DNA from: Cupriavidus necator N-1
Lineage (GTDB): Bacteria > Pseudomonadota > Gammaproteobacteria > Burkholderiales > Burkholderiaceae
Reading direction: 5' to 3'
Length of the DNA: 64,000 nt
NCBI RefSeq assembly: GCF_000219215.1
Contig: NC_015723.1
Coordinates: forward strand, 620,001-684,000
Notes under the pieces: generated by a model
Told to the model about the DNA's origin: nothing
The model's input: the letters and a program-made list of their open reading frames with translations, nothing else
Databases searched by the model: none
Made by a program: the position numbers and the translations under genes
Part shown: one piece after another, positions 9,284 to 38,971 of the stretch
How the letters are laid out: every line of letters starts with the position of its first letter
Position numbering within the stretch: position 1 is the stretch's first letter

Positions 9284-9301
9284 CATCCTTCGTTCGGACT
9301 A
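9284..9301 (-). promoter_or_regulatory. Shared motif copy 1: TAGTCC-N6-AGGATG
   Basis: On the minus strand the sequence reads TAGTCCGAACGAAGGATG. It points toward the SDR starting at 9227, 57 bp away. The same two half-elements with the same 6-base spacing occur at 14804, 15721, 35183 and 38954. It is probably an activator or operator site for the steroid regulon; the binding protein is unknown. Confidence 0.6.
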
Positions 9302-9362
9302 CTCGGTACCCGGTCCGGATACTCCACGCGGACGATGGCCCCCGGCCCGGCAAGACCGACGA

Positions 9363-9382
9363 TAGTCCCCATCCCAACGACT
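9363..9382 (+). promoter_or_regulatory. Weaker copy of the shared motif, TAGTCC-N8-ACGACT
   Basis: TAGTCC is followed after eight rather than six bases by ACGACT, pointing toward the SnoaL gene that starts at 9436. It makes the divergent 9228-9435 spacer carry one copy per direction. The altered spacing lowers confidence. Confidence 0.35.
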
Positions 9383-9435
9383 GCCCGCGCGGCGTATCGC
9401 GGCGCTGGCGGTCACAACAAGGAGTGAGACTGGCC

Positions 9436-9855
9436 ATGTCCGAACTGGAGTGCAAAGAAGCCATCCATGCCCTGACCTGCCGCTATGCGCAGGCGGTGGA
9501 CCGGCGCGATTTCCCGAAACTAGCGGCGCTGTTCACGGCGGACGCATGGCTGAGCGGGCCGGGCTTCCGCATGGACGGACCGCAGGCGATTGCTGACGGC
9601 ATGGCATCGCTCGGGCAGTACAGCGCCACGCAGCATCACGTGCACCAGCAACTGGTCGAAGTCGATGGCGATACCGCGACCGGCGAGACCTATTGCGTGG
9701 CCAACCACCTGTACGAGCAGGACTGCGTGCCGCGCAAGCTGGACTGGGGCATCCGCTACCAGGACCGCTTCGTGCGGCGCGACGGCCAGTGGCGCATTGC
9801 CGCGCGCGAGCTGTTGGTGGACTGGACGCAGGACCTGCCGCTGCGGGGGGCATGA
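9436..9855 (+). CDS. SnoaL/NTF2-fold protein (139 aa)
   Basis: A second small SnoaL-like protein with the typical start (CKEAIHALTCRYAQAVDRRD), a FPKLAALFTADA loop, a His-rich central strand (ATQHHVHQQLVEVDGD) and the closing FVRRDGQWRIAARELLVDW. The central histidines match the bile-acid 7alpha-dehydratase/SnoaL4-type subfamily better than classical ketosteroid isomerase, so a dehydratase role is plausible; this is inference. AAGGAGTGAGACTGGCC precedes the ATG. It overlaps the next SDR by 4 bp (ATGA), so the two are coupled. Confidence 0.7.
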   Translation: MSELECKEAIHALTCRYAQAVDRRDFPKLAALFTADAWLSGPGFRMDGPQAIADGMASLGQYSATQHHVHQQLVEVDGDTATGETYCVANHLYEQDCVPRKLDWGIRYQDRFVRRDGQWRIAARELLVDWTQDLPLRGA

Positions 9856-10706
9856 TGACGACCCGTGTACTGGAAGGCAAGACGGCCCTCGTCACCGGCG
9901 GCGCCGGCGGCATCGGCGCGGCCAGCGCGCTGGCGCTGCTGCGCGACGGCGCGGCGGTGGTCCTCATGGGGCGGCGGCGCGAAGCGCTGGAGGCGGCACG
10001 GCGCAGCCTGCGCGCGCAGGTGGCCGGCGCCACCGTGGCAATCAGCGTCGGCGACGCTTGCCGCGAGGATGACGTGCAGGCCGCGCTGCAGCAGGCCTGG
10101 GAGCTGGAGCGGCGCCTCGACATCGTGGTCGCGACCGTTGGCGGCGGCGGTTTCCGTCCGCTGCTGATGCATGACGCGGCCTCGCTGATGGCGGAGCTGG
10201 AGCTGAACATCGCCAGCGCGTTCCTGGCGGTGCGCCACGCGTCGCCGCTGATGGCACCGCGTGGCGGCGCGATCGTCTGTATCTCGTCGAACGCGGCGCG
10301 CATGACCTGCCGCTGGCTGTCGGCATACTGCGCCGCCAAGGCGGGGCTGGAAGCGTTCGTGCGCGCCGCGGCCGAGGAGCTGGCGGGATGCGGCATCCGC
10401 GTCAATGCGGTGCGGCCGGGGCTCACCCGCTCCGGCGCGACCGGACCGATGTTCGACAACCCGGCCATCCTCGACAAGTTCGTCGCGCAGATGCCGCTGG
10501 GCCGCGCCGGCGAACCGGACGACATTGCCAGCGCGGTGCGCTACCTGGCGGGGCCGGAATCGGGCTGGGTGACCGGACAGAGCATCGCCGTGGACGGCGG
10601 CAGCGAGCTGCGCGGCAATCCCATCCTCGATGAAACCGTGGCGGCGGTGTATGGCGAAGCCGCGCTGCAGGCCGTGCTAGCCGGCAGGATTCCCGAAGCC
10701 GGCTGA
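9852..10706 (+). CDS. Short-chain dehydrogenase/reductase (284 aa)
   Basis: A classical SDR: TGGAGGIGAAS at the N-terminus, MGRRREAL after the second strand (Arg residues favour NADP(H)), ISSNAARM with the active-site Ser region, and YCAAKAG with Tyr-x3-Lys. NAVRPGLTRS and the C-terminal TGQSIAVDGGSE are typical of 3-oxoacyl reductase-like SDRs. Two adjacent ATG codons occur at 9852 and 9855; the first overlaps the previous stop. It sits between the SnoaL gene and another SDR with a 25-bp gap, in one operon. Substrate not assignable. Confidence 0.8.
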   Translation: MMTTRVLEGKTALVTGGAGGIGAASALALLRDGAAVVLMGRRREALEAARRSLRAQVAGATVAISVGDACREDDVQAALQQAWELERRLDIVVATVGGGGFRPLLMHDAASLMAELELNIASAFLAVRHASPLMAPRGGAIVCISSNAARMTCRWLSAYCAAKAGLEAFVRAAAEELAGCGIRVNAVRPGLTRSGATGPMFDNPAILDKFVAQMPLGRAGEPDDIASAVRYLAGPESGWVTGQSIAVDGGSELRGNPILDETVAAVYGEAALQAVLAGRIPEAG

Positions 10707-10731
10707 AGCCGGCAACCCAAGGAGATAAGCA

Positions 10732-11490
10732 ATGAATCAAGTCAGGGACAAGGTTGCGCTGGTCACCGGCGCGGCCAGCGGGGTAGGGCGCGCCGACGCG
10801 CTGCTGCTGGCGGCCGAAGGCGCGCGCGTGGTCATCAGCGATGTCAACCAGGAGGCCGGGCAGGCACTGGCCCGCGAGATCGGGGATGCGGCCATGTTCG
10901 TGCGCCACGACATTGCCAGCGAAGAGGACTGGCGCAAGGCCGTGGCCGCCACACAGGACCGCTTCGGCCGGCTCGACGTGCTGGTCAACAATGCGGCCAT
11001 CTGTCCGCTCGGGTCGATCGAGGAAACCTCGCTCGACAGCTGGCGGCAGGTCATGCGCGTCAATGCCGACGGCTATTTCCTGGGCTGCAGGTTCGGTGTG
11101 CAGGCAATGAAGGGCAACCCCGCCGGGGGCTCCATCGTGGTGATGTCGTCGGTGGCGGCGCTGGGCGGGCTGCCGATGATGTGCGCATACAGCGGCGCCA
11201 AGGGCGCCGTTACCGCGCTGACGCGCAGCGTCGCCGTGCACTGCAAGCAAAGCGGCTACCGGATCCGCTGCAACTCGATCCATCCCGATGGCGTCTGGAC
11301 GCCGATGACGCAGGCGCTGGTGCCGGACCTGGATCCGGCCGCGCTCGGCATCGGCACCGACCCGATGGCACGCATGTGCCAGCCGGAGGATGTGGCCAAC
11401 CTAGTCCTGTTCCTGGCTTCGGACGCGTCGCGCTTTATCAATGGCGCCGAATTGCGCATCGATAACGCGCAGTTGATCTCGGGGCTGTAA
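10732..11490 (+). CDS. SDR paralogue of the 4301-5065 gene, hydroxysteroid dehydrogenase-like
   Basis: A 252-residue classical SDR with TGAASGVGRADALLL, an Asp in ISDVNQE (NAD(H) likely), VNNAAICPLGS, MSSVAALGG and YSGAKGAV carrying Tyr-x3-Lys. It shares long stretches with the SDR at 4301-5065, including YRIRCNSIHPDG and SRFINGAELRIDNAQ, so the pair came from a duplication. The two keep different central loops (LVPDLDPAALGIGTDP here), which border the substrate pocket, so they probably act on different substrates or stereoisomers. AAGGAGATAAGCA precedes the ATG. It is the last gene of this short operon. Confidence 0.85.
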   Translation: MNQVRDKVALVTGAASGVGRADALLLAAEGARVVISDVNQEAGQALAREIGDAAMFVRHDIASEEDWRKAVAATQDRFGRLDVLVNNAAICPLGSIEETSLDSWRQVMRVNADGYFLGCRFGVQAMKGNPAGGSIVVMSSVAALGGLPMMCAYSGAKGAVTALTRSVAVHCKQSGYRIRCNSIHPDGVWTPMTQALVPDLDPAALGIGTDPMARMCQPEDVANLVLFLASDASRFINGAELRIDNAQLISGL

Positions 11491-11495
11491 GAGCC

Positions 11496-11529
11496 GCTGC
11501 GGCGGCCGGCGCAAGCAGGCCGCCGCAGC
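11496..11529. terminator. 12-bp inverted repeat between convergent genes
   Basis: Arms GCTGCGGCGGCC and GGCCGCCGCAGC pair perfectly around a 10-base loop. The hairpin starts 5 bp after the stop of the plus-strand SDR and ends 6 bp before the stop of the minus-strand gene at 11536. No T-run follows, so termination strength is uncertain. Confidence 0.5.
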
Positions 11530-11535
11530 GCCGAG

Positions 11536-12435: not shown

Positions 12436-12478
12436 GCTTGTCTCCTTGGTGGGGTGGTGTGGCCGCGGTGCGCGGCCA

Positions 12479-13309
12479 TCAGAGGTTCATGCCGTTGCCG
12501 CCGATGACCGGCATGTTGGTCCACGCGCCCTTGGGGTCGCGATACCAGCCGGCCGCGGCCAGCGCGCCGCCATTGACATGCAGCGCCGTGCCGGTGATCC
12601 AGGCCGCGCGCGGGCTGGCCAGGAACAGGATGCCGTCGGCAATGTCGCGCGGCGTGCCGAAGCGGCCCAGCGGAATCCAGCGCGGGATATGGTGCTGGTG
12701 TTCCGCCGCGACCATCTGCGACACCGGAACCTGCGGCGTTTCGGTGGTCTCGGGGGCGATCAGGTTGACGCGGATGCCCGCCGGCGCCAGCTCCAGCGCC
12801 AGGCTCTGCGTGAAGCCGGTGATGGCAGCCTTGAAGGCGCCGTAGACGCTGCAGTACGGAATGCCGCGGAAGGCCTCGATCGACGACACCGTGACGATGC
12901 TGCCGGCAGTACTGCGCCGCAGCAGTGGCAGCATGGCGCGCGTGACGGTGAAGACGTGGCCCAGGTTGGCGGCGTAGAGGCTGGCGATCTCGTCGTCGGC
13001 ATAGAGCTCGAACGGCTTGGCGATGCGCAGGAAATCGCCGACGTTGTTGACCAGCACGTCCAGCACTCCGAAACGCTGTTCGACCTGCGCAGCCAGTTCG
13101 CGCACGATGCCGGCATCGGTGGCATCGCCCTGTACCACCAGCATTTCCGTGCCGGGCTTGTTCAGCAACTCCCGGGCCTGCTCGGCGCGCTGTTCGTCGA
13201 TCTCGATCAGCGCCACGCGCGCACCCTGTTCCAGGAAGGCTTGCGCGGCGGCGAGCCCGATGCCGGCGCCGCCGCCGGTGACCAGCACGGTCTTGTCGGT
13301 GAAATCCAT
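12479..13309 (-). CDS. Short-chain dehydrogenase/reductase (276 aa)
   Basis: A classical SDR with TGGGAGIGLAAAQAF, an acidic IEIDEQR after the second strand (NAD(H) likely), VNNVGDFL, VSSIEAFRG and YGAFKAAI carrying Tyr-x3-Lys. The C-terminus (GTALHVNGGALAAAGWYRD) extends beyond the usual end with a MPVIGGNGMNL tail. AAGGAGAACGACTC precedes the ATG. It is divergent from the LuxR-type regulator, sharing a 232-bp promoter region, and is followed by the epimerase-family gene. The exact reaction is unknown; a hydroxysteroid oxidation is likely from context. Confidence 0.8.
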   Translation of the reverse strand: MDFTDKTVLVTGGGAGIGLAAAQAFLEQGARVALIEIDEQRAEQARELLNKPGTEMLVVQGDATDAGIVRELAAQVEQRFGVLDVLVNNVGDFLRIAKPFELYADDEIASLYAANLGHVFTVTRAMLPLLRRSTAGSIVTVSSIEAFRGIPYCSVYGAFKAAITGFTQSLALELAPAGIRVNLIAPETTETPQVPVSQMVAAEHQHHIPRWIPLGRFGTPRDIADGILFLASPRAAWITGTALHVNGGALAAAGWYRDPKGAWTNMPVIGGNGMNL

Positions 13310-13444
13310 CTGAGTCGTTCTCCTTCGGTTGCACTGTGGTGTGCGGCCATTTGATCGGCGGCAGGCGCGATGGGCATCGTCCGATTGCAGGTCAGGGAAA
13401 ACACTTAGATGGCGCGAACCAGGGCAAACAAGAGCGCCGCGTGA

Positions 13445-13473
13445 CGGACATCGGCAGGCAGCCTCCCTATAAT
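13445..13473 (+). promoter_or_regulatory. Sigma70-like promoter of the LuxR-type regulator
   Basis: A perfect -10 hexamer TATAAT lies at 13468-13473. A weak -35 (CGGACA, 4 of 6) sits 17 bp upstream. The predicted start would leave about 60 bases of leader before the ATG at 13542. The TAGTCC motif found at other promoters is absent here, suggesting the regulator is expressed independently of it. Confidence 0.55.
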
Positions 13474-13541
13474 CTGCGCTGCCCAGGTGCCGCAGAGCAC
13501 CGGTCAGTCCACGCATGGGGTGTGGAAACAGGAGACAGACA

Positions 13542-14729
13542 ATGTTGATGGCGACCGTTGAGGCGCAAGGGGTGGCGTCGCCCTGGTTTGCGCAGTCCGG
13601 ACTGAGCCTGCCGCATTTCAGCGCGCTGCTGGCGGCGGTCTATGAAGGGCCGATGGAACCCGTGCCCTGGGGCCGCGCGCTGGAAATGCTGCGCAAGCAA
13701 CTTGGTGCCAGCTATGTGAGCTTCATCCTGCGCTCGCCCGCGAGCGACCGCAGTGGCATCGCGGTGCACGCGTCGCAGCACGGCACTTCGCTGGAGGCCG
13801 AGGCGTCGTACAACACCTACTACTACGCCATCGATCCCTTTATCAACCTGCCTACCGACCGGGCCGTGACGGTCGACGAAGCGATGGGCCCCGGCAACTG
13901 GTGCCGCAGCGAGATCTACCGGCAGTTCCTGCAGCCGCTTGGCGTGCGCTACCTGCTGGGCGCGGACATCCGCACCGAAGACGGGGTCGAGTGCCGGCTG
14001 CGCGTCTGCCGCCAGCACGACGCGCAGGACTTCTCCGAGGTGGACAAGGCGGCCTGCGCCACCATCCTGCCGCACCTGAGGCGCGCGGTCCGGCTGCATT
14101 CCAGGCTGGATGTGGTCGAATCGGAGCGCAGCCTCTATGCGGGCGCGATCGACCGCATGCTGGTGGGCATGGTCATCCTCGACGCAGCCGGCGCAATCCT
14201 GAAGAAAAATGCGGAAGCCGATGAGATCCTGGCGGAGAACGACGGCATCCGCCTCAATGGCGGCAACTTCGAGATCGCCTACGCACAGGAAAGCCGCAAG
14301 TTCCAGTACCTGCTGCGCCGCGCCCAGATGGGGCACCACGGCAGCGCGCCGGCGCTGGCCGAAGCCATGTCGATCACCCGCCCCTCGGGGCGCGGCAAGC
14401 TGGGCGTGCTGATCCGCACCATTCCGCTCAGCGAATGGTCGGAAGACCACCGGCATCGCCCGGCCTGCGCTGTCTTTATCCGCGATCCCGAGCGCAAGTC
14501 GCGCGCCTCGCACGAGGTGGTGCGCAAGCTGTTCGACCTCACGCCCGCCGAGACCGCACTGGCACTGGTGCTTGCCGACGGCATGACGCTTGACGAAGCC
14601 GCCGAGGCGCTGGGCACCAGCAAGAACACGGCGCGCGCCCACCTGCGCGCGATTTTCTCCAAGACCGGGGTCACGCGGCAGGCCACGCTGGTGCGCATGC
14701 TGCTGAGCAGCGTCGTGACGCTCGGCTGA
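13542..14729 (+). CDS. LuxR-type regulator, TeiR/TesR-like
   Basis: A 395-residue regulator with a long N-terminal sensing part (no response-regulator receiver aspartates seen), a PAS-like middle (LVGMVILDAAGAILKKNAEA, about residue 205) and a C-terminal LuxR helix-turn-helix: LTPAETALALVLADGMTLDE then ALGTSKNTARAHLRAIFSKT, residues about 330-390. Its size and layout match TeiR/TesR, the LuxR-type activator of testosterone degradation in Comamonas testosteroni, and it sits inside the locus. The ATG at 13542 is chosen because CAGGAGACAGACA precedes it; an upstream ATG at 13515 lacks a ribosome site. It is the obvious candidate to bind the shared TAGTCC motif, untested. Confidence 0.8.
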   Translation: MLMATVEAQGVASPWFAQSGLSLPHFSALLAAVYEGPMEPVPWGRALEMLRKQLGASYVSFILRSPASDRSGIAVHASQHGTSLEAEASYNTYYYAIDPFINLPTDRAVTVDEAMGPGNWCRSEIYRQFLQPLGVRYLLGADIRTEDGVECRLRVCRQHDAQDFSEVDKAACATILPHLRRAVRLHSRLDVVESERSLYAGAIDRMLVGMVILDAAGAILKKNAEADEILAENDGIRLNGGNFEIAYAQESRKFQYLLRRAQMGHHGSAPALAEAMSITRPSGRGKLGVLIRTIPLSEWSEDHRHRPACAVFIRDPERKSRASHEVVRKLFDLTPAETALALVLADGMTLDEAAEALGTSKNTARAHLRAIFSKTGVTRQATLVRMLLSSVVTLG

Positions 14730-14985
14730 GCGCCATGGCTTGATCCACGCACGCGTGTTCCAGGACGCGCGTAATGCCCTTATGGCCCGATGATCGGTCC
14801 TCCTAGTCCGAATGGAGGATGAGACCCGCCATCCGCGCCCCTAGCATGCATCCGACAAGCGGGCGCGGCACACGGACGGCACCTCAGACGGACGCAGCGG
14901 CGCGTGCTGTCCACGCCCGGTCCTGTTCTGCGCACGCATCAACCTGTCCGGCCCCGGCCGGCACCAGTACCAGGGAGCGTGGAGC
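14730..14985 (+). other. 256-bp intergenic region: leader of the dioxygenase/Ipd operon
   Basis: No gene is supported here. It holds the shared motif at 14804-14821 and a possible -10 (TAGCAT, near 14852) further down. The distance from motif to the EthD start, about 165 bp, is longer than at the other promoters, implying a long 5' leader. Confidence 0.5.
14804..14821 (+). promoter_or_regulatory. Shared motif copy 2: TAGTCC-N6-AGGATG
   Basis: The sequence TAGTCCGAATGGAGGATG points toward the EthD gene at 14986. Half-elements and spacing equal those of copies 1, 3 and 4. Confidence 0.6.
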
Positions 14986-15702
14986 ATGGAAAAAGTCATC
15001 TATATCGTCTGGCGCGAATCTCAGACCGAGCCGGGGGAGTTCGCGCGCCGGCTGCGCACGACGCTTGCGGACAAGCTATTGGCGCTGGGCGCGCGCGGAC
15101 TGCAGGTGAACGTGGCCGATGACGCGGTGTTGCCGGCCGCGGGCCTGCGCCAGGCGAATACCCGCCCGCAGATGGATGGGCTGGTCTCGGTCTGGATGGA
15201 CAGCGCCATCGACTGCCTGCGGCAGCCGTTCGACCAGGCGATCGAGGCCGCCGTGGGCCGCATGGCCGGCTACCTTGTGACGGAGTCCCAGCCCATCCGC
15301 AATACACGTTTCCCGGCCGCGCCGGGCGAACGCACGCCCGGCTTCGCGCAGCTTGCCTTCCTTACCCGGCCGCCCCGGCTTACGCCGCAGGCCTGGCTGG
15401 ACATCTGGCACAACCACCACACGCCGGTGGCGGTCGAGACCCAGGACAACTTCCTCTACGTGCAGAACGTGGTGGTGCGGCCGGTCACCTACGCCGCGCC
15501 GCACTACGACGCCATTGTCGAAGAGGGCTTCCCCGATGCGGCGATGACCGACCCGCAGGCGTTCTTCGACGCGGCCGGCGACGAAGGCAAGTTCCAGCGC
15601 AACCTGCAGGCCATGATGGAAAGCTGCCAGCGCTTCATCGACTTCGACAAGATCGACGTGATTCCCACCAGCCAGTACCTCGTGCGCCCGGCGGCGGCCT
15701 GA
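14986..15702 (+). CDS. EthD-domain protein (238 aa)
   Basis: The C-terminal half carries the EthD signature WLDIWHNHHTPVA (about residues 138-150), and the N-terminal half (IYIVWRESQTEPGEFARRLR) looks like a second, diverged ferredoxin-like dimeric alpha-beta barrel domain, so the protein is probably a tandem two-domain form. EthD proteins are small accessory or degradative proteins in oxygenase systems; catalytic function is usually unclear. It lies directly before the extradiol dioxygenase gene but with its own motif upstream and another motif between the two, so they may be separately initiated. The ATG follows AGGGAGCGTGGAGC. Confidence 0.7.
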   Translation: MEKVIYIVWRESQTEPGEFARRLRTTLADKLLALGARGLQVNVADDAVLPAAGLRQANTRPQMDGLVSVWMDSAIDCLRQPFDQAIEAAVGRMAGYLVTESQPIRNTRFPAAPGERTPGFAQLAFLTRPPRLTPQAWLDIWHNHHTPVAVETQDNFLYVQNVVVRPVTYAAPHYDAIVEEGFPDAAMTDPQAFFDAAGDEGKFQRNLQAMMESCQRFIDFDKIDVIPTSQYLVRPAAA

Positions 15703-15720
15703 CGCCCGCGCCGGACCGGC

Positions 15721-15738
15721 TAGTCCCACTGGACGATG
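15721..15738 (+). promoter_or_regulatory. Shared motif copy 3: TAGTCC-N6-ACGATG
   Basis: The sequence TAGTCCCACTGGACGATG lies 70 bp upstream of the extradiol dioxygenase start and points toward it. Confidence 0.6.
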
Positions 15739-15807
15739 TGCCGGGCCGCAGCGCACGGAAGAATGGTCCCATCAGCCAACAGTGGCAACGAACCTGAGGA
15801 GACCGGC

Positions 15808-16704
15808 ATGTTGGATATCCGTGCGCTAGGCTACATCGTGGTCGAGTCCACCGACCTGGGGCAATGGCGGCACTATGCCGAACAGGTGCTGGGCATGGCC
15901 TGTTCCGGCGCCCCCGGCGGTGCGCTGTACGTGAAGATGGACGAGCGCGACTACCGCTACCTGGTGGTGCCGGGCGCGCGTGACCGCTACCTGGCATCGG
16001 GCTGGGAGCTGGCCGACGAGTCGGCCTACCGCCATGCGCTCGACACGCTGCGCCAGGCCAAGGTGGAGGTCGTGCACGCCAGCGCCGCGGAACTGGCACA
16101 GCGCCGCGTGCAGGCCATGGCCTGGTTTTCCGATCCCTCGGGCAACCGCCATGAGATCTCCTGGGGCATGCGCTCGGACTTCCTGCGCTTTGTCTCGCCG
16201 CTGGGCGTGCCGCGCTTCATCACGGACCCGATGGGGGCGGGCCATGCGGTCCTGCCCGCGCCGGCCTTCGACGAGACCTATGCCTTCCTGTGCGAGGTGA
16301 TGGGTTTCGGCCTGTCCGACATCTTCCGCGTGCGCTTTACCAACGACCCGGCCGAACCGGAAAAGCGCATCCACTTCCTGCATTGCGGCAACGCCCGCCA
16401 CCACAGTCTGGCGATCTTCGAGATGCCGTCGGAATCCGGCTGCATCCACGTGATGGCCGAGGTCCCCGACATGGCCGAGGTGGGCCGCGCGCTGGACCGC
16501 GTGCAGCAGCACGGCGTGACGCTCTCGGCCACGCTGGGCCAGCACTGCAATGACCGCATGACTTCCTTCTACATGAAGACCCCCGGCGGCTTCGACCTCG
16601 AATTCGGCCACGGCGGCCTGGTGGTGGACTGGAGCCACCACGCGGCCTACGAGGCCACGCGCGTCAGCCTGTGGGGACACGACTTCAGCATCGGATACCG
16701 CTAA
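15808..16704 (+). CDS. Extradiol (VOC) dioxygenase, HsaC/TesB-like
   Basis: A 298-residue two-domain vicinal-oxygen-chelate dioxygenase of the BphC type. The expected iron ligands are visible: His146 (MGAGHAVLPAP), His199 (NARHHSLAIFE) and Glu265 (GGFDLEFGHGG), with a Tyr in SFYMKTPGG near the usual active-site Tyr. Length and spacing match 2,3-dihydroxybiphenyl dioxygenase and the steroid enzymes HsaC/TesB, which cleave the catechol ring of 3,4-DHSA at the meta position. CTGAGGAGACCGGC precedes the ATG. It heads the long operon of Ipd genes, 7 bp before ipdA. The meta-cleavage hydrolase (HsaD/TesD) was not found in this window. Confidence 0.82.
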   Translation: MLDIRALGYIVVESTDLGQWRHYAEQVLGMACSGAPGGALYVKMDERDYRYLVVPGARDRYLASGWELADESAYRHALDTLRQAKVEVVHASAAELAQRRVQAMAWFSDPSGNRHEISWGMRSDFLRFVSPLGVPRFITDPMGAGHAVLPAPAFDETYAFLCEVMGFGLSDIFRVRFTNDPAEPEKRIHFLHCGNARHHSLAIFEMPSESGCIHVMAEVPDMAEVGRALDRVQQHGVTLSATLGQHCNDRMTSFYMKTPGGFDLEFGHGGLVVDWSHHAAYEATRVSLWGHDFSIGYR

Positions 16705-16711
16705 ACACACC

Positions 16712-17602: not shown

Positions 17603-17625
17603 ACCCGCCAACCCAAGGAGCGACC

Positions 17626-18426: not shown

Positions 18427-18433
18427 GGCCGAC

Positions 18434-20403: not shown

Positions 20404-20422
20404 CCCACAGACAGAGGAAACC

Positions 20423-22370: not shown

Positions 22371-22391
22371 CGGCACCCCGGGGAAAACACC

Positions 22392-25517: not shown

Positions 25518-25528
25518 GCGCGACGGCC

Positions 25529-28691: not shown

Positions 28692-28731
28692 AGGGAAACA
28701 GTTGGGACCGGGAACAACGCAGGAACCAGAC

Positions 28732-29187: not shown

Positions 29188-29200
29188 ACAGGAATCCAGA

Positions 29201-30403: not shown

Positions 30404-30474
30404 TCACAAGCAGCCCCTGCAGGGACCGGCCCGCAACGAGGCCGCCTGCCATCACTCCAACCGGAGGAGACATC

Positions 30475-31440: not shown

Positions 31441-31478
31441 CCCTGCCTGACCCTGGCTAACCGAATGCGAGAACGATC

Positions 31479-33920
31479 ATGACCCGCCCCCATTCCTCCG
31501 GCCGCCTGGGCCGCCTTGTCGATGCCTGTGCCAGCCTGCTGATGCACCGGCGCCGCCTGCTGCTGGTGCTGTGCCTGGCCGTGACCGTGGCGCTGGGCGT
31601 CTCGGCCACGCGGCTGCGGCTCGATCCCGGCTTCAACAAGATGATCCCGCTGCAGCACCGGTACATGCAGGTGTTTACCAAATACGCGAGCACCTTCTCC
31701 GGTGCCAATACGGTGCTGCTGAGCCTGCGCTGGAAGGGCGACGGCGACATCTATAACGCGGCCTTCATGGACAAGCTGCGCCGCGCCACCGATGACGTGT
31801 TCTTCATTCCCGGCGTGGACCGGTCGCGCGTGTTCTCGCTGTTCACGCCCAATGTGCGCTACACCGAGGTGACGGAGGCGGGCTTTCGCGGCGACGTGGT
31901 GGTTCCGGGGCGCTTCTCCGGCACGCCGGCCGAGCTCGATAAGGTGCGCCGCAACGTGGCGCGCTCCGGCCAGATCGGCCGCCTCGTCAGCAACGACCTG
32001 AGGTCCGCGCTGATTCGCGCGGAGCTGCGTGAGACCGATCCGGCCACCGGCAAGACCATCGACTACGGTTCGGTCGCACGCCAGCTGGAGAAGATCCGCG
32101 GGGAATTCAGCGGCACCGACGTCGAGGTCAATATCGTCGGCTTTGCCAAGCTGGTGGGCGATGTGGAAGAGGGCATCGCCGGCGTGATGGGCTTCTTCGC
32201 GCTGGCCTTCGCCGTGACTGCGCTGCTGCTGTGGCTGTACACGCGCTCGCTGCGCATCACGCTGCTGTCGCTGGTGGTGGCGCTGCTGCCCGTGGCCTGG
32301 CTGCTGGGCCTGCTGCCGCTGCTGGGCTACGGCATCGACCCAATGTCGATCCTGGTGCCGTTCCTGATCTTCTCGATCGGGGTCTCGCACGCGGTGCAGA
32401 TGACCAATGCCTGGAAGCAGGAAGTGGTGCAGGGGCATGGTGCGCTGGACAGCGCCAGCGCGGCCTTCCGCAAACTGTTCATCCCCGGCACGGTCGCGCT
32501 GCTGACCAACGCGCTCGGGTTCATGGTCATCATGCGCATCGAGATCGACATCGTGCGCGAGCTTGGCATCACGGCCTGCCTGGGTGTGCTGCTGATGATC
32601 GTGACCAACAAGGTGTTCCTGCCGATCCTGCTGTCGTACACGCGGCTGGAGCCGTCGGCGCTGGCATCGGCGCAGGCCCGGCGCGCGCAGGGAACCGGCG
32701 GGCTGTGGCAGAAGTTCGGCGCGCTGGCGCGCCCGGGACCGGCGCTGGGGGTGTTCGTGGCCGCGCTCGCGCTGCTGGCGGCCGGCGCCATCGATTCACG
32801 CGGCCTGAAGATCGGCGATGTCGGCAGCGGCGCACCGGAACTGCGCGCGGATTCGCGCTACAACCGCGATAGCGCCAGCATCGTGAGCCAGTACAACATC
32901 GGCTCGGATGCACTGACCGTGGTGGTGGAGCCCACCGGCTTCGACGACGGCTGCCTGCACTACCCGGTGATGAGTGCGGTGGAACGCTTCGAGATGCATA
33001 TGCGCGGCGTGTCCGGCGTGCAGTCGGTAGTGAGCGTGTCATCGCTGGCCAAGGTGGTGATCGGCGCCTACAACGAGGGCAACCCGCGCTGGGAGGCGCT
33101 GCCGCGCAGCAGCGAGGGCCTGAGCCAGGGCGCCAAGGCCTTCGACCCGGACAACGGCATGAATACCTCGAACTGCCAGGCCATCCAGGTGCTGATCTAC
33201 ACGGCCAACCATGAGGGCGCCACCATCGCCCACATCATCCGCGAGATCCGCCGCTTCACCGCCGCCGACAAGACCCCCAACGTGGCGTTCCGCCTGGCCG
33301 GGGGCAATATCGGCGTGATGGCGGCCACCAATGAGGCCGTGGAGGAAGCCGAAGTGACCATGCTGCTGTCGATCTTCGGCGCGATCACGCTGCTGTGCCT
33401 GCTGACGTTCCGCTCGTGGCGCGCGGTGCTGTGCATCATCGTGCCGCTGACGCTGGTGTCGGTGCTGTGCAATGCGCTGATGGCGCGGCTTGGCATCGGG
33501 CTGAAGGTGTCGACGCTGCCGGTCATCACACTGGGCGTGGGCGTTGGCGTGGACTACGGCATCTACCTGTATGAGCGCATCCAGCACCAGATCCGCGAGG
33601 AAGGACAGGCCTTGCCGCAGGCCTTTGCCGAGGCCATGCGCCAGCGCGGTTCGGCGGCGCTGTTCACGGCGCTGACGATGTGCATCGGCGTGGGCACCTG
33701 GGCCTTTGCCGCGCTCAAGTTCCAGGCCGACATGGGGATCCTGCTGGCCTTCATGTTCCTGGTGAACCTGTTCGGTGCGGTGTCTTTGCTGCCGGCGCTG
33801 GCTGCGTGGCTGGGGGTGGAGGAAGAAGAGCGTGCACGCGTGGCCGCCGGTGGTGCCGGTGGCGCAGCGCGCGGCGAGACGGTGACGCCGGCGCACGCCT
33901 TGAAATCCGACGTGGTATAG
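31479..33920 (+). CDS. RND/MMPL-family transporter (813 aa)
   Basis: An inner-membrane RND-superfamily protein with the internal duplication of MMPL-type transporters. A first transmembrane helix (about residues 27-46) precedes a periplasmic domain, then a bundle of five helices around residues 230-390 including PMSILVPFLIFSIGVSHAVQ; the second half repeats this (about residues 620-790) with VITLGVGVGVDYGIYLYERI. The buried Asp/Gly motif (GVGVDYG) is the usual proton-relay region. Neighbours (YCF48, DUF1329) and location suggest transport of steroids or hydrophobic intermediates across the envelope; direction is unknown. The gene lies 38 bp after the YCF48 gene. Confidence 0.85.
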   Translation: MTRPHSSGRLGRLVDACASLLMHRRRLLLVLCLAVTVALGVSATRLRLDPGFNKMIPLQHRYMQVFTKYASTFSGANTVLLSLRWKGDGDIYNAAFMDKLRRATDDVFFIPGVDRSRVFSLFTPNVRYTEVTEAGFRGDVVVPGRFSGTPAELDKVRRNVARSGQIGRLVSNDLRSALIRAELRETDPATGKTIDYGSVARQLEKIRGEFSGTDVEVNIVGFAKLVGDVEEGIAGVMGFFALAFAVTALLLWLYTRSLRITLLSLVVALLPVAWLLGLLPLLGYGIDPMSILVPFLIFSIGVSHAVQMTNAWKQEVVQGHGALDSASAAFRKLFIPGTVALLTNALGFMVIMRIEIDIVRELGITACLGVLLMIVTNKVFLPILLSYTRLEPSALASAQARRAQGTGGLWQKFGALARPGPALGVFVAALALLAAGAIDSRGLKIGDVGSGAPELRADSRYNRDSASIVSQYNIGSDALTVVVEPTGFDDGCLHYPVMSAVERFEMHMRGVSGVQSVVSVSSLAKVVIGAYNEGNPRWEALPRSSEGLSQGAKAFDPDNGMNTSNCQAIQVLIYTANHEGATIAHIIREIRRFTAADKTPNVAFRLAGGNIGVMAATNEAVEEAEVTMLLSIFGAITLLCLLTFRSWRAVLCIIVPLTLVSVLCNALMARLGIGLKVSTLPVITLGVGVGVDYGIYLYERIQHQIREEGQALPQAFAEAMRQRGSAALFTALTMCIGVGTWAFAALKFQADMGILLAFMFLVNLFGAVSLLPALAAWLGVEEEERARVAAGGAGGAARGETVTPAHALKSDVV

Positions 33921-33943
33921 GGCCGATGTCCCGGAGAAACAAC

Positions 33944-35185
33944 ATGCACGATAACCAGGCTTCCGCGGCGGCGGCATTCACGCCGGTCCGCATCGGCCCG
34001 CTCACGCTGCGCAACCGCTTGATCAAGGCCGGCGCCAACGAGGGCATGACGCCGCAGGGCCTGCCGACCCAGGCCCTGGTCAGGCACCACCGCGAGCTTG
34101 CCGCGGGCGGCGTGGGCATGACCACGGTAGCGTATGCGGCGGTGGCCGACGACGGCCTGACTTTTTCGCACCAGCTCAGCATGCGCCCGGAGCAGGTTGC
34201 GCCCCTGCGCGTGCTGACCGATGCCGTGCATCGCGAAGGCGCTGCGGCCTGCCTGCAGATCACCCATGCGGGCTCGTTCACCACCATGCGCCACGGCGGC
34301 AGCCGCGCGCCGGGCAGTGCTTCGGCCGGACTCAATGCCTTTGGCATGCTGCATGGCGTGTATTTCCAGCGTGCCATGCGCGAGGCGGACATGGCACGCG
34401 TTGCCGGCCAGTTCGCCGCGGCAGCGCGTCTGGCGCGCGAAGCCGGCTTCGATGCGGTGGAAATCCACATGGGGCACGGCTACCTGCTCAACCAGTTCCT
34501 GTCGCCGCTGAGCAACCGGCGGCGCGATGCGTTCGGCGGCGGCGTGGAGAACCGCACCCGCTTTCCGGCCGCGGTGCTGCGCCAGGTGAAGGACGCGGTC
34601 GGCGCCGAGCTGGCGGTCTGCTGCAAGCTGAGCGTCAGCGACGGCGTGCCGGGCGGCAACGAACCTGCGGATTCCGCCGTGACCGCGCGCCTGCTGGAGG
34701 CGGAAGGCGCCGACCTGCTGACCCTCAGCGGCGGGCGCAACGTGGAGAGCCCGTGGGCGCTGTTCGGCAGCCCCATGCCCACGGCGCAGATGAAGGCCGC
34801 CGCACCGACCGCGGTGGCGCGCTTCGGCATCACCATGCTGGAAAAGCGTACGCCGCGCGCGCTGGCCTTTCGCGAGCTGTATTTCCTGGAAGCGTCGCGC
34901 GTGGTGCGGCGGGCGGTGCGCATGCCGCTGGCCTATATCGGCGGCGTCAAGTCGATCGGCAATGTCGCGCAGCTGATGGAAGAGGGTTTCGACTGCGTCG
35001 CGCTGGCGCGCGCGCTGATCCACGATCCCGCGCTGGTCGCCAACTGGCGCAGCGGCGCGGTGGCGCATTCGGCCTGTGACAGCTGCAATGGCTGCGTGGC
35101 CCGGATCTACGATCCGGCCGGCGTCAGTTGCGTGCACGGCCCGGGCAATGATCCGGCTCTGACCAGGATTGCCGCGCTGCAGTAG
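33944..35185 (+). CDS. Old Yellow Enzyme-family NADH:flavin oxidoreductase (single domain)
   Basis: A 413-residue FMN-binding TIM barrel: IGPLTLRNRLIKAGANEGMT, LQITHAGSFT, FDAVEIHMGHGYLLNQFLSP (His-x-Gly-His substrate region), SNRRRDAFGGGVENRTRF and AYIGGVKSIGNVAQLMEEGF. A cysteine cluster C-D-S-C-N-G-C, with a fourth Cys 12 residues later, resembles the 4Fe-4S site of 2,4-dienoyl-CoA reductases, but the C-terminal FAD/NAD domain of those enzymes is missing. It probably reduces an enone or dienoyl-CoA of a steroid intermediate. The ATG at 33944 follows CCGGAG; its stop codon overlaps copy 4 of the shared motif. Confidence 0.8.
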   Translation: MHDNQASAAAAFTPVRIGPLTLRNRLIKAGANEGMTPQGLPTQALVRHHRELAAGGVGMTTVAYAAVADDGLTFSHQLSMRPEQVAPLRVLTDAVHREGAAACLQITHAGSFTTMRHGGSRAPGSASAGLNAFGMLHGVYFQRAMREADMARVAGQFAAAARLAREAGFDAVEIHMGHGYLLNQFLSPLSNRRRDAFGGGVENRTRFPAAVLRQVKDAVGAELAVCCKLSVSDGVPGGNEPADSAVTARLLEAEGADLLTLSGGRNVESPWALFGSPMPTAQMKAAAPTAVARFGITMLEKRTPRALAFRELYFLEASRVVRRAVRMPLAYIGGVKSIGNVAQLMEEGFDCVALARALIHDPALVANWRSGAVAHSACDSCNGCVARIYDPAGVSCVHGPGNDPALTRIAALQ

Positions 35186-35200
35186 TCCGATGGGACGATG
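35183..35200 (+). promoter_or_regulatory. Shared motif copy 4: TAGTCC-N6-ACGATG
   Basis: The sequence TAGTCCGATGGGACGATG lies 61 bp upstream of kshA and points toward it. Its TAG is also the stop codon of the OYE gene. A possible -10 (TATCTT, 35221-35226) follows 20 bp later. Confidence 0.6.
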
Positions 35201-35260
35201 AGCCGCCGGCCAGACGCTCTTATCTTGAAGGTCCCACGGGAATTCAAGGAGACAGACGCC

Positions 35261-36361
35261 ATGACCGCTGACGGCAACCAGACTGGCTACAAGGCCGGCT
35301 ACAAGATCGAATCACGCCCGCCCGAGGCCCGCTTCGCGCGGGGCTGGCATTGCCTCGGCCTGGCCGATGGCTACCGCGACGGCGTGCCGCACACGCTGAA
35401 TATCTTCGGCCGGCGCCTGGCGGCATTTGCCGACTCGACCGGCGCGATTCGGGTGATCGACGGCTACTGTCCGCACATGGGGGCGGACCTGAGCACCGGC
35501 ACCGTGCAGGGCGACAACCTGGTCTGCCCGTTCCACGGCTGGCAATGGGGCGGCGACGGCGGCTGCAAGTCCATCCCTTACTGCAAGCGCGTGCCGCCCA
35601 AGGCCCGCGTCGGCGCCTGGGAGACCTGCGAGCAGAACCGGCTGCTCTTCATCTGGCACGATCCCGAAGGCCGCCCGGCCCCCCCCGAGGTGGCGATCCC
35701 GCGCATCGAGGCCTGCTTCTCATCGGATTGGTCGGACTGGGCCATCGACGAGATGCTGATCCGCACCAACTGCCGCGAGCTGGTCGACAATATCTCTGAC
35801 ATGGCGCATTTCGGCACGGTCCATGGCGCGCCGGTGGACTACTTTGCCAACCTGTTCGAAGACCACAAGGCCACGCAGCTGATGATCGGACGCAGTGCTC
35901 GGCTCTCCGGCGATGCACAGCTGACGGCGCTGTCCACGTACTTCGGGCCCGCGTACCACATCACCGAGATGAGCGGACAGATGGGCGACCAGCAGATCCA
36001 CTCGATCCTGCTCAACTGCCATGTGCCGATCGACCTCAACAGCTTCGCGCTGCGCTACGGCGTGCTGGTGAAGAAGATCCCGGGGCTGTCCGAGGAACAG
36101 AACCGTGCCATGGCGCAAGCCTATGTGGAGCAGGCCAAACAGGCCTTCTACGAGGACGTGGCGATCTGGGACAGCAAGATCCGCATCGACAACCCGCTGC
36201 TGTGCGAAGGCGACGGGCCCATCTACCAGATGCGTGACTGGTACCAGCAGTTCTACACCGACGTGGAACAGGTGCGGCCGTCCAGCGTGGCACGGCGCAC
36301 GTTCGAGCTGAACCCGGGCGGCATCGAGCCGCCGGCGCTGCGGCATGTGTTCGAGGCCTGA
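35261..36361 (+). CDS. kshA: KshA-like Rieske oxygenase, 3-ketosteroid 9alpha-hydroxylase
   Basis: A 366-residue Rieske non-heme iron oxygenase. The Rieske ligands are Cys70 and His72 (YCPHMGADL) and Cys89 and His92 (CPFHGWQW). The mononuclear iron site is seen as His183 and His188 in NISDMAHFGTVHG, with Asp304 (IWDSKI) as the likely third ligand. Length and spacing match KshA, which hydroxylates C9 of 3-ketosteroids and, with KstD, opens ring B. The reductase candidate is at 5093-6157, so the two components are not adjacent. CAAGGAGACAGACGCC precedes the ATG. Other steroid Rieske oxygenases share this fold. Confidence 0.85.
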   Translation: MTADGNQTGYKAGYKIESRPPEARFARGWHCLGLADGYRDGVPHTLNIFGRRLAAFADSTGAIRVIDGYCPHMGADLSTGTVQGDNLVCPFHGWQWGGDGGCKSIPYCKRVPPKARVGAWETCEQNRLLFIWHDPEGRPAPPEVAIPRIEACFSSDWSDWAIDEMLIRTNCRELVDNISDMAHFGTVHGAPVDYFANLFEDHKATQLMIGRSARLSGDAQLTALSTYFGPAYHITEMSGQMGDQQIHSILLNCHVPIDLNSFALRYGVLVKKIPGLSEEQNRAMAQAYVEQAKQAFYEDVAIWDSKIRIDNPLLCEGDGPIYQMRDWYQQFYTDVEQVRPSSVARRTFELNPGGIEPPALRHVFEA

Positions 36362-36387
36362 TCGACACCGTCATGGAACTCAACCAC

Positions 36388-37179
36388 ATGAAAACCGTAG
36401 TCATTACCGGAGCCGCGTCCGGCATGGGTGCGGCCGTGCGCCAGCGCATGCTCGCGGACGGCTGCCGGGTCATCGGCATCGACCTGCGCGATGCCGACAT
36501 CCTTGCCGACCTGTCCAACCCGCAGGGCCGCGCTGCCGCCATCGACGCTGTACTGTCGCGGTCGGGTGGCCGCATCGATCAGCTGGTCTGCTGCGCCGGC
36601 CTGGGCCCGCATGTCGAACCCGCCACGCTGGTGGCATCGGTCAACTACTTCGGCGTGGTGGCGCTGCTGGATGGCCTGTTCGAGGCGCTGCGCCAGGGCT
36701 CGGATCCGTGCGCCGTGGTGGTGTCGTCCAATTCGGCCACGCTCCAGTCCTGGGAGGGCAGCCCGCTGCGTGATGCCTACCTTGCCGGCGACGAGTCCGG
36801 CGTGCGCGCGATGGTGGCAGCCGCCGCGGCGGCGGAAGCCACCCGGGACCAGGCTGGCTATATTGCCTATGCCAGCTCCAAGCATGCGGTGGCGGCGGCC
36901 GCGCGGCAACGTGCTGCCGCGTGGGGCCAGGCCGGCGTGCGCTTCAACGTGGTCGCGCCGGGCGCGGTGGAAACGCCGCTGCTGCAGGCAGGGCTGAAGG
37001 ACCCGCGCTATGGCGACGCCATCCGCGATTTCCTGCCGCCGTTGGGCCGCCGTGCGCAGCCTGAAGAGGTGGCCGCGCTGATCGTCTTCCTGTGCGGGCC
37101 GCAGGCGGCCTACATCCATGGCAACGTGGTGTTCATCGACGGCGGCCTGGATGCCGCGCAGCGACCGCTGAACTTCTGA
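36388..37179 (+). CDS. hsdA: 3alpha-hydroxysteroid dehydrogenase, HsdA-like
   Basis: A 263-residue SDR matching recalled Comamonas testosteroni 3alpha-HSD/carbonyl reductase. Shared features are the cofactor motif TGAASGMGAAVRQRM, the Asp in IDLRDADILADLS, CCAGLGPHVEP (in place of NNAG), VNYFGVVALLDGL, YIAYASSKHAVAAAARQRAA carrying Tyr-x3-Lys, and APGAVETPLLQAG. Such enzymes interconvert 3alpha-hydroxy and 3-keto steroids, an entry step for bile acids and androsterone. The ATG at 36388 agrees with the family N-terminus; an ATG at 36373 would add five residues. It lies 26 bp after kshA and ends at a strong terminator. Confidence 0.88.
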   Translation: MKTVVITGAASGMGAAVRQRMLADGCRVIGIDLRDADILADLSNPQGRAAAIDAVLSRSGGRIDQLVCCAGLGPHVEPATLVASVNYFGVVALLDGLFEALRQGSDPCAVVVSSNSATLQSWEGSPLRDAYLAGDESGVRAMVAAAAAAEATRDQAGYIAYASSKHAVAAAARQRAAAWGQAGVRFNVVAPGAVETPLLQAGLKDPRYGDAIRDFLPPLGRRAQPEEVAALIVFLCGPQAAYIHGNVVFIDGGLDAAQRPLNF

Positions 37180-37192
37180 TCTCCTGGTCAAT

Positions 37193-37235
37193 GGGGCATC
37201 CGCCGCGGCTCGCGGCGGATGCCCCATTTTTATTT
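37193..37235 (+). terminator. Rho-independent terminator of the plus-strand steroid operon
   Basis: A perfect 15-bp stem (GGGGCATCCGCCGCG, 37193-37207, with 37211-37225) has a 3-base loop and is followed by ATTTTTATTT. It lies 13 bp after the hsdA stop and is the clearest terminator in the window. Confidence 0.92.
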
Positions 37236-37250
37236 GATGGCGTTCCGGAC

Positions 37251-37373
37251 TTACGCGACCACGACATCGTCCTGCATCCGGCGTTCGCGTTCGCCGGGAT
37301 ACAGGGCTTCCTTTTCGAGGTAGAAGCAACCGGCGCAGCCCGGGTTGCAATCGGAGCGGCTGGGCTTTGCCAT
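37251..37373 (-). CDS. Possible 40-residue cysteine-rich small protein
   Basis: A short minus-strand frame encoding a peptide with C-x3-C-x2-C (DCNPGCAGCFYLE) and a charged C-terminal half (PGERERRMQDDVVVA). Its ATG lies 2 bases after the T-run of the DUF1329 terminator, so it would need read-through or a start inside that region; GGGGG of the stem could serve as a ribosome site. GC3 is about 77%, plausible for a real gene here. The spaced cysteines suggest metal or Fe-S binding. I do not recognise a family, and coding status is uncertain. Confidence 0.4.
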   Translation of the reverse strand: MAKPSRSDCNPGCAGCFYLEKEALYPGERERRMQDDVVVA

Positions 37374-37375
37374 GT

Positions 37376-37410
37376 AAAAACCCCCAAAAGTCGTCTCCGA
37401 CTTCTGGGGG
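37376..37410 (-). terminator. Rho-independent terminator of the DUF1329 gene
   Basis: On the minus strand a hairpin (arms 37398-37410 and 37381-37393, loop GAGA, one A-C mismatch) is followed by TTTTTAC. It lies 70 bp after the DUF1329 stop. Confidence 0.85.
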
Positions 37411-37479
37411 CAGTTCAGGGAGGGGAGGGGAGCGCGACCGGGCGCCAAAGGCTGCGCCCGGCCGGATATCACGATCGGA

Positions 37480-38859
37480 TCAGGTACCCGACCCACGCGC
37501 GGCGTCCGGGGAGAAGAACGCCTCGTTGAATTCCGGACTGTTGTTCAGCGTTGCCATCGGGCCTTCGTTGGTCAGGCGGTCCGCCAGGTAGGCACCCGAA
37601 ATCAGGTCATGGTAGAAGACCGTGGTCGGATAGTAGCGGCGTGCATCATAGGTGTACACCGAGGCCTGGAGATTGGTGCGCCACAACTGGCCGCGGCCAT
37701 CGTAGTTGTCGGCCGCCAGGGCTAGCCAGCTGTCTTCGTCGAGATACAGGACGCGCTTCGCATACTGGTGCCGGAAACCGGACTTGAGCGTTGCTTCCAG
37801 TACCCATACCCGATGCGGTTCATAGCGCATGACGTCCGGATTAGCGTGGCCATTCGTGAGCAGCTCCTTGTACTTGACGGAAGTGCTCAGCAGCTTGTAG
37901 TTGTGGTACGGGACGAAGATCTCTTTCTTGCCGACGATCTTCCAGTTGTAGCGTTCGCCCGAGCCGTTGAAGAGCCGGTCGTCGTCCACGGTGCGGAAGC
38001 CGCCGGGGCCCTGGGGCTGGTCAAAGCCGAATTCCGGCGCCTGGCGCACCCGCCGCGTGCCCGGGTTGTAGATCCACGTGCGGTTGGTGTCAGAACCCTC
38101 CTGGTCCCAGACCGCGTAGCCAACGATCACCTGGCCGCGGTCACGCAACGGCAGGTCCGTGGCGGTGCGGAAGAAGGAGCGCTCGTTGATGGCGTTGTGC
38201 GGGTCGAACTTGCCGTTATTGCGCGGCGACAGGATGCTGTATGAGACGCGTCCCCACGCGATCGAGCCGTTCGGATAGACCACGGCCTGGTCGAACTGCG
38301 CCTTCTCGGTGCCGATGGCCGACGAGAAGCGCTGGTTCCACAACAGCTCCATCGCGGTTTTCGGAATCGGGTAGGGAACCTGGGGTCCCGCTTCCTTCAG
38401 GCCGTTGGCATCGCTCGTCATGCTGACGGTGGCGGCGTAGGTGCGGATGTCCTTGTAGACGGCGTCCTCATACCGGAAGTCGCGATGGCTGGGGTAGACC
38501 GGCATCTTGAAGGTGTCGGGGTACTTCTTGAACAGCGCCTTCTGCCCGTCGCTGAGCCGCTCGGCATACTGCGCCATGTTCTGCGCGGTGATGACGAACA
38601 GCGGCTTCTCATCGGCATACGGGTCCGGATAGCGTTCGCCGCGCTGGTATTTGACATGGGCCGGCGTGCCCAGCCACTTGCCGGACCATGCCGGGACCTC
38701 GCCGTCCTTGCTGGCGGCACGCTCGGCGCCCATCGGCGTGAGGGGGCCATCCAGTTGCTTGAGTTCCTCCGGGGTGACCTTCGCCCACGATGCCGCCGCC
38801 AGGGCCATGCTGGTGAGCAGCAGGCCACCGCGTATCAGTTGTCTTGTGCTGGATTTCAT
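37480..38859 (-). CDS. DUF1329 envelope protein with signal peptide
   Basis: A 459-residue exported protein with a clear signal sequence (LIRGGLLLTSMALAAASWA, cleavage near residue 26) and the long beta-rich DUF1329 body; recognisable parts are LDGPLTPMGAERAASKDGEV, YNPGTRRVRQAPEFGFDQP, WKIVGKKEIFVPYHNYKL and YEPHRVWVLEATLKSGFRHQ. The fold is related to lipoprotein carrier LolA/LolB-like proteins. DUF1329 usually accompanies DUF1302 (an outer-membrane protein) and an RND transporter; here the RND and YCF48 genes are on the opposite strand and no DUF1302 gene is visible. The start is fixed by CAAGGAGCGAGACTTCA. Copy 5 of the shared motif is 95 bp upstream on the same strand. A role in hydrophobic substrate handling is inferred. 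Confidence 0.83.
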   Translation of the reverse strand: MKSSTRQLIRGGLLLTSMALAAASWAKVTPEELKQLDGPLTPMGAERAASKDGEVPAWSGKWLGTPAHVKYQRGERYPDPYADEKPLFVITAQNMAQYAERLSDGQKALFKKYPDTFKMPVYPSHRDFRYEDAVYKDIRTYAATVSMTSDANGLKEAGPQVPYPIPKTAMELLWNQRFSSAIGTEKAQFDQAVVYPNGSIAWGRVSYSILSPRNNGKFDPHNAINERSFFRTATDLPLRDRGQVIVGYAVWDQEGSDTNRTWIYNPGTRRVRQAPEFGFDQPQGPGGFRTVDDDRLFNGSGERYNWKIVGKKEIFVPYHNYKLLSTSVKYKELLTNGHANPDVMRYEPHRVWVLEATLKSGFRHQYAKRVLYLDEDSWLALAADNYDGRGQLWRTNLQASVYTYDARRYYPTTVFYHDLISGAYLADRLTNEGPMATLNNSPEFNEAFFSPDAARGSGT

Positions 38860-38899
38860 TGAAGTCTCGCTCCTTGTAAAGAGGAATTGCCGGCGCTGG

Positions 38900-38922
38900 C
38901 TGTGCCTGTGCCTGTGCCTGTG
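38900..38922. repeat. Short tandem repeat, about 3.8 copies of CTGTGC
   Basis: Four nearly perfect hexamers lie in the leader of the DUF1329 gene, about 45-60 bp upstream of its start codon. Such repeats can change length by slippage and alter promoter or leader spacing. Confidence 0.6.
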
Positions 38923-38953
38923 GTGACAGCGTAGTGATGGCGCGGCGGCGGGG

Positions 38954-38971
38954 AATCGTTGGAACGGACTA
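38954..38971 (-). promoter_or_regulatory. Shared motif copy 5: TAGTCC-N6-ACGATT
   Basis: On the minus strand it reads TAGTCCGTTCCAACGATT, pointing toward the DUF1329 gene 95 bp away. The last base differs from the other copies (T for G). Confidence 0.55.

Follow-up and report, generated by a model that had tools for sequence, protein, structure and literature searches.

What switches on the steroid genes of Cupriavidus necator N-1, and can the switch be recognized in the DNA? The question is raised by a stretch of 64,000 nucleotides (the window, C1:620001-684000, on one of the four contigs of this 8.48-Mb genome) which covers the right part of a 76-kb steroid locus (C1:582782-658971). The window encodes a LuxR-type regulator at 13542, surrounded by kshA, TesB/HsaC-type, FAD_binding_2 and acyl-CoA genes, and strain ATCC 17699 of this species is reported, in the accessible portion of PMC4810484, to grow on testosterone. 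An earlier note had picked out a word, TAGTCC-N6-A(C/G)GAT(G/T), ahead of five genes, and had taken it for the operator or activator site of a steroid regulon, possibly bound by the 13542 protein. Our analysis indicates that the motif is very probably the operator of LuxR-type activators of steroid catabolism which resemble TeiR of Comamonas testosteroni.

The motif and its promoters

The whole genome and those of relatives were scanned by pattern search. All five exact copies in the window are present, with 57 to 165 bp between the end of the motif and the ATG as had been claimed, and the observation is confirmed. The 8.48 Mb hold ten exact copies, and seven of these fall inside the steroid locus (P = 6e-13 for at least seven of ten, for a span chosen after the hits were known). 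With up to two mismatches allowed the window holds 22 matches against 4.9 expected, a number reached by none of 100 shuffles. TAGTCC alone occurs there 18 times (5.9 expected); the other TAGTCC words listed in the earlier note are among these, but its list was incomplete, omitting those at 2895, 11402, 20181, 23617 and 44163. A scan of the window against Rfam gave no match at gathering scores.

As written in the DNA, the motif is a lux-box-like inverted repeat, (CA)TMGTCC-N4-GGACGATG, the upstream half of which is usually TAGTCC in this genome. Positions 11 and 12, hidden in the N6 spacer, are G in 21 and 23, respectively, of 28 sites that had been chosen without regard to them. Of the five copies in the window, those at 9284 and 38954 match less well in the downstream half. 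In the genus designated g11, whose proteins are Burkholderia- or Paraburkholderia-like, the left half of the palindromic matches reads TCGTCC or TCATCC.

A second element accompanies the repeat. In all seven locus copies a hexamer of the form NANNNT begins exactly 38 bases past the start of the motif (CAATAT, AAACAT, CAAGCT, TAGCAT, AAGAAT, TATCTT and TACGCT). The hexamers at this position beside the three exact copies outside the locus (C1:956855, C1:1328257 and C3:1960503) are CTGGTC, GGCGTC and CACGCC, none of which fits; these copies, having no -10 hexamer, were judged to be chance occurrences and set aside. Among 46 non-redundant sites NANNNT follows after exactly 20 nt in 40, against an average of about 1.3 of 46 for other spacers (P = 1e-55 for the fixed spacing); the sites were drawn from the window and 39 fetched stretches ignoring the -10, although many of these stretches had been chosen for matches to the composite pattern of motif and -10. 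Even so, 16 of the 18 sites that could not match the composite pattern exactly still carry the hexamer at 20 nt; one of these 18, C1:617532, had been seen earlier with a mismatch.

Because the -10-like hexamer follows at exactly 20 nt, the repeat can be placed near -42.5. If about 7 nt separate the hexamer from the transcription start, the 18-mer would span approximately -50 to -33, and its downstream half would occupy the -35 position, as predicted for a class II activator site; the start sites are likewise predicted. Lux boxes are inverted repeats of about 20 bp which are centred near -42.5, in the class II position. The features of the window are as follows (window coordinates).

8361-9227, minus strand: SDR gene
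9284-9301, minus strand: predicted operator TAGTCCGAACGAAGGATG of the SDR gene, ATG 57 bp off; 17 of 18 columns invariant in nine Cupriavidus sequences
9258-9263, minus strand: predicted -10 CAAGCT, 20 nt downstream of the SDR operator; 6 of 6 columns invariant in the same nine sequences
9320-9337, plus strand: predicted divergent operator TACTCCACGCGGACGATG of the SnoaL gene (9436-9855, plus)
9358-9363, plus strand: predicted -10 GACGAT of the SnoaL promoter
13542-14729 (possible start 13515), plus strand: TeiR-like LuxR-type regulator and candidate binder, with three further paralogues in the genome
14804-14821, plus strand: predicted operator TAGTCCGAATGGAGGATG of the EthD-domain gene (14986-15702, plus), ATG 165 bp off
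14842-14847, plus strand: predicted -10 TAGCAT of the EthD promoter
15721-15738, plus strand: predicted operator TAGTCCCACTGGACGATG of the TesB/HsaC-type extradiol dioxygenase gene (15808-16704, plus), ATG 70 bp off
15759-15764, plus strand: predicted -10 AAGAAT of the extradiol dioxygenase promoter
35183-35200, plus strand: predicted operator TAGTCCGATGGGACGATG of kshA (35261-36361, plus), ATG 61 bp off
35221-35226, plus strand: predicted -10 TATCTT of the kshA promoter
38954-38971, minus strand: predicted operator TAGTCCGTTCCAACGATT of the DUF1329 gene (37480-38859, minus), ATG 95 bp off
38928-38933, minus strand: predicted -10 TACGCT of the DUF1329 promoter

The operator at 15721 probably serves the genes after the extradiol dioxygenase as well. 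The divergent SnoaL promoter had been credited with a weak copy at 9363 in which the halves are eight bases apart. This assignment fails: the TAGTCC of that copy is invariant in only one of six columns across nine Cupriavidus sequences. In the window and eight Cupriavidus relatives the conserved footprint lies instead at 9320-9337 (14 of 18 columns invariant) and at the hexamer 9358-9363 (5 of 6), with 7 of 20 invariant columns in the spacer between them, and 9320 therefore replaces 9363 as the site of the SnoaL gene.

From 21 non-redundant sites of other genomes, among them the orthologous promoters of relatives, a weight matrix was built and run over C1:575001-684000. It returned 12 matches of at least 23 bits, lying 70-182 bp upstream of a start, while the best score in five shuffles was 16.3. 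These strong sites precede the following genes on C1.

582853: alpha/beta hydrolase gene (after C1:582782; spotted by eye and confirmed with Pfam)
585701: frame of 78 amino acids without a Pfam match
603980 (start): second SnoaL gene
617669: luciferase-like monooxygenase gene
619096: hsaA-type acyl-CoA_dh_2 gene
Remaining seven sites: kshA and the TesB-type dioxygenase, EthD, DUF1329, SDR, SnoaL and DUF1302 genes

Two more matches exceeded all shuffles, one of 19.8 bits upstream of a LuxR paralogue (615913) and one of 21.2 bits within a gene (window 28243). The latter and another in-gene match at window 39929 (one mismatch) were put aside as probable chance. On a further contig a 25-bit site stands at C4:725216 upstream of SDR and FAD_binding_2 genes (C4:725216-727735), and two weaker sites at C4:7655-11236 flank the fourth LuxR paralogue, where they precede an SDR gene and a second kshA. 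The regulon, as judged from these sites, seems to extend to another replicon.

Genes of the sulfate-activation type (PAPS_reduct-domain, CysN/CysC-type) recur within steroid loci, namely at C1:605452-608389 in this genome, at 13248-14400 of a Pandoraea-type locus (L128) and at 32995-35400 of a Vibrio plasmid locus (L189). They are preceded by a strong operator-like site in the Pandoraea-type locus and by a weak site without a -10 in C. necator; none was found upstream of those of Vibrio. Perhaps they supply phosphoadenosine phosphosulfate (PAPS) for the sulfation of steroids. In the window a Mutator-family transposase gene lies at 44686-45945, to the right of which the matrix found no site; possibly the steroid locus ends there.

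Distribution among genomes and the LuxR-type regulators

The motif was surveyed in an even draw of 150 genomes of the family, with kshA called at E values up to 1e-40 and a close regulator at E values below 1e-100. Motif and -10 together were found in 18 genomes (reversed control, 2): in 16 of 16 with kshA and in 2 of the 134 others (G098 and G006, one match each), or, counted by regulator, in 15 of 15 with a close homologue and 3 of 135 others. The 15 genomes with a close regulator all belong to the 16 with kshA, the exception being G123. The palindromic form occurred in 22 of the 150 genomes, and its reversed control in none; at least two palindromic matches were present in 15 of the 16 kshA genomes as against 0 of 134, and single ones in G123, G093, G016, G075, G068, G088 and G106. 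The earlier note had asked whether the motif is as common before unrelated genes, and whether orthologous promoters have it. Neither check tells against the proposal: combined with its -10, the motif does not turn up widely before unrelated genes, and orthologous steroid promoters of other genera have it too. G093, a genome without kshA at E values up to 1e-40, has a single tesB-type promoter word at C3:792698-792741, possibly a remnant, or part of a partial steroid pathway.

Beyond the family the signal thins. Among 300 genomes of the order 19 had a composite match, of which the 17 outside the family about equal the control, and all were single except for the two in G240. Only G240 and G388 among the non-family genomes of this sample have a regulator homologue (E up to 1e-60). 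G388 has no composite match but three palindromic sites near the regulator, two of them with a -10. In 274 genomes of the class a homologue at the same threshold was found only in the genome of the window and in G240.

In G101, a Pandoraea-type genome with one close regulator, sites lie upstream of kshA and of TesB-type, hsaA-type, ETF, flavin-reductase and alpha/beta-hydrolase genes, and also upstream of BNR-repeat, AlaDh/PNT, PAPS-reductase-domain and MFS genes. Plasmid plas1 of Vibrio alfacsensis from turbot gut (L189) carries a steroid-degradation-like cluster with a 38% regulator homologue and three sites with a -10, one of them having one mismatch, upstream of acyl-CoA dehydrogenase, ETF and SDR genes. 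On a plasmid of Sphingobium sp. TomTYG65 (L191, 20311-22677) there are fully symmetric repeats, TAGTCC-N4-GGACTA, near a 35% homologue of TeiR and a gene for 3-oxosteroid 1-dehydrogenase.

The genome of the window encodes four paralogues of the TeiR-like subfamily (C1:633515, 615907, 604062 and C4:8674), whose recognition helices are nearly identical. The closest named relatives of the window regulator, at 89-98% identity, are from Cupriavidus strains; no NCBIfam model reached its cut-off for this protein. An AlphaFold model (pLDDT 78, pTM 0.48) suggests a GAF-like part (about residues 23-198) followed by a PAS domain (200-323) and a helix-turn-helix (331-403), and the 50 matches listed in a structure search, all with TM-scores below 0.4, are mostly GAF/PAS sensors, too broad a set to point to a ligand. 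For 15 of 24 close regulator genes a palindrome with at most one mismatch lay no more than 1.5 kb away, as against 2 of 15 distant LuxR genes and 1.6% of Markov sequences (Fisher P = 0.003 for close versus distant genes, the rows not being independent of one another). The helix NTAR[AST]HLR is common to the 18 close regulators compared, and 15 distant LuxR proteins are without it.

That the 13542 protein itself is the binder is another matter. In a tree of 39 proteins it groups only with those of G045 and G138. In G145 the stretches read contain neither its orthologue nor the EthD gene, the TesB-type gene there directly adjoining the SDR gene; the LuxR and EthD genes (window 13542-15702) may have come or gone together. 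G145 nevertheless keeps six sites, before DUF1329, kshA, TesB-type, hsaA-type, luciferase-like and alpha/beta-hydrolase genes. Since four paralogues exist and these sites persist without its orthologue, the 13542 protein is not the sole candidate, and because of G145 the C1:615907 and C1:604062 proteins are the more widely kept ones. The surveys thus bear out the part of the earlier proposal which concerns an activator site bound by LuxR-type proteins, here of the TeiR-like subfamily, but not the choice of the 13542 protein in particular, whose role as main binder we would rate at a little under even.

The link to TeiR runs through G240, the regulator of which is 97% identical to the C. testosteroni record of that name. 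The window regulator and TeiR share 41% identity over 375 residues (30-404; E 2e-94), and their recognition helices are NTARAHLRAIFSKTGV and NTARAHLRSIFSKTGV. In the tree the G240 orthologue clusters with the window protein, away from three distant LuxR rows, the TeiR record itself being outside the tree. In the 11 stretches of G240 that were read, seven of eight exact palindromes ending in ATG carry the -10 at 20 nt. A box with its -10 lies 88 bp upstream of its tesB-type gene; sites with a -10 precede both genes of a divergent pair, hsaA-type and flavin-reductase; and others are upstream of DUF1329, thiolase and SDR genes and, with one mismatch, of a KshA_C oxygenase gene. We take the hsaA-type gene to be of the tesA2 type and the flavin-reductase gene to be of the tesA1 type. 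These boxed genes support the link to TeiR, because they head clusters (tesB-tesR, tesA1-tesG and tesA2-ORF18) for whose induction TesR is reported to be necessary in the available portion of PMC6895838.

G240 also has a 58% homologue of an MMPL transporter encoded inside the steroid cluster of the window (31479-33920), which matches the sterol-sensing domain.

Proposed mechanism and competing explanations

We envisage that a regulator dimer (GAF-like, PAS and GerE helix-turn-helix) would bind the inverted repeat when a steroid, a steroid metabolite or some other signal reaches its N-terminal part. The bound dimer, acting as a class II activator, would then contact RNA polymerase and induce no fewer than six transcription units of the window, plus more outside it. 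The sequence itself shows the sites, their palindromic form and fixed spacing, and their conservation and co-occurrence; binding by the protein, activation, the start site and a response to a ligand are inferred from it.

Several observations count against this scheme. A Nevskiaceae locus (L108) has a 51% regulator yet no site within 21 kb, and no site could be recognised within 1.5 kb of kshA in three g11 genomes (L166-L168). In G123, a 260-contig assembly, kshA and a site are present but no close regulator was detected, and one of the eight G240 palindromes is without a -10. The regulator loci are related to each other, so that the counts overstate their independence. Lastly, TeiR is described in the part of PMC6678751 available as a polar membrane kinase, not as a plain DNA-binding activator; Pfam gave no kinase domain in either TeiR or the window protein, and weak PAS matches in TeiR.

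The G123 case, together with a second helix-turn-helix gene near the Vibrio locus, would suit a different transcription factor that travels with steroid clusters and binds the site, the LuxR proteins being mere neighbours. We consider this unlikely. The palindrome closely flanks regulator genes of several paralogue types and, in L172, precedes a LuxR gene itself, the close regulators have their recognition helix in common where the distant ones lack it, and the only other regulator among 40 window frames scanned with Pfam is a LysR type at 54999, which lies beyond the steroid part. Chance occurrence in GC-rich DNA could explain the single composite matches in 2 of 134 family genomes without kshA and the 17 non-family genomes of the order, which are about as many as in the control; its probability is negligible in view of the enrichment, fixed spacing, footprint conservation and co-occurrence (P from 6e-13 for clustering to 1e-55 for spacing).

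The rigid 20-nt spacing and a downstream half that fills the -35 might also be expected of a promoter for an alternative sigma factor with an unusual -35. This is highly improbable, as conservation extends to the upstream half (about -50 to -45), which completes an inverted repeat such as a dimeric protein would recognise; moreover, a palindrome in L151 is flanked on each side, at 20 nt, by a -10-like hexamer, and NANNNT resembles the -10 of sigma-70. A site over the -35 region could also exclude the polymerase, the regulator then being a repressor relieved by steroid. Repressor sites tend to vary in position, whereas here the box occupies the -35 at a fixed spacing and is followed by weak -10 hexamers, all of which fit activation. 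A LuxR repressor of 3,17beta-HSD has been reported in C. testosteroni (PMC6678751 and PMC8700777, in the portions available), but the nearest studied homologue, TeiR/TesR, is reported in similarly partial sources as a positive regulator, and repression is in our opinion very unlikely.

A readable operator predicts target genes, start sites and the regulator across genera, allows steroid loci to be found from DNA alone, and offers parts for steroid biosensors. Whether TMGTCC-N4-GGACGATG, 20 nt before a -10, is a single code by which beta- and at least some gammaproteobacteria turn on aerobic steroid catabolism (in Sphingobium in fully symmetric form), moving between classes with TeiR-like GAF/PAS/LuxR proteins and even on plasmids, seems to us evenly balanced. 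On that reading TeiR would work by direct promoter binding with no kinase cascade, and the duplication of paralogues in Cupriavidus would allow several steroid signals to feed one regulon.

Comparison with known systems

The operator and the regulon are new, and the regulator is of a known kind; no operator of TeiR was met in a search of the open literature, outside which lie the original TeiR/TesR papers, including that of 2004, where an earlier description is possible. The KstR and KstR2 systems of actinobacteria are similar in that, according to sources available in part, a dedicated regulator controls the whole pathway of steroid catabolism, but these are TetR-type repressors. KstR homologues are stated, in the accessible text of PMC8399759, to be absent from bile-acid-degrading Proteobacteria. 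TetR had no Pfam match among the 40 window frames scanned, the KstR palindrome not having been searched for.

The closest architectural parallel is the lux box, to which the motif corresponds as an inverted repeat of about 20 bp near -42.5, lying over the -35 and followed by a sigma-70-like -10 (the lux side is given from general knowledge). It differs in the half-site, TMGTCC; in the sensor, which the model suggests to be of the GAF/PAS type in place of an acyl-homoserine-lactone domain; and in that its regulon is catabolic. With TeiR the window regulator has in common a C-terminal GerE domain and a nearly identical recognition helix (NTARAHLR[A/S]IFSKTGV), the difference being that the genome of the window has four paralogues. 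Between the two pictures of TeiR, the direct activator and the membrane kinase, the predicted operator offers a sharp test.

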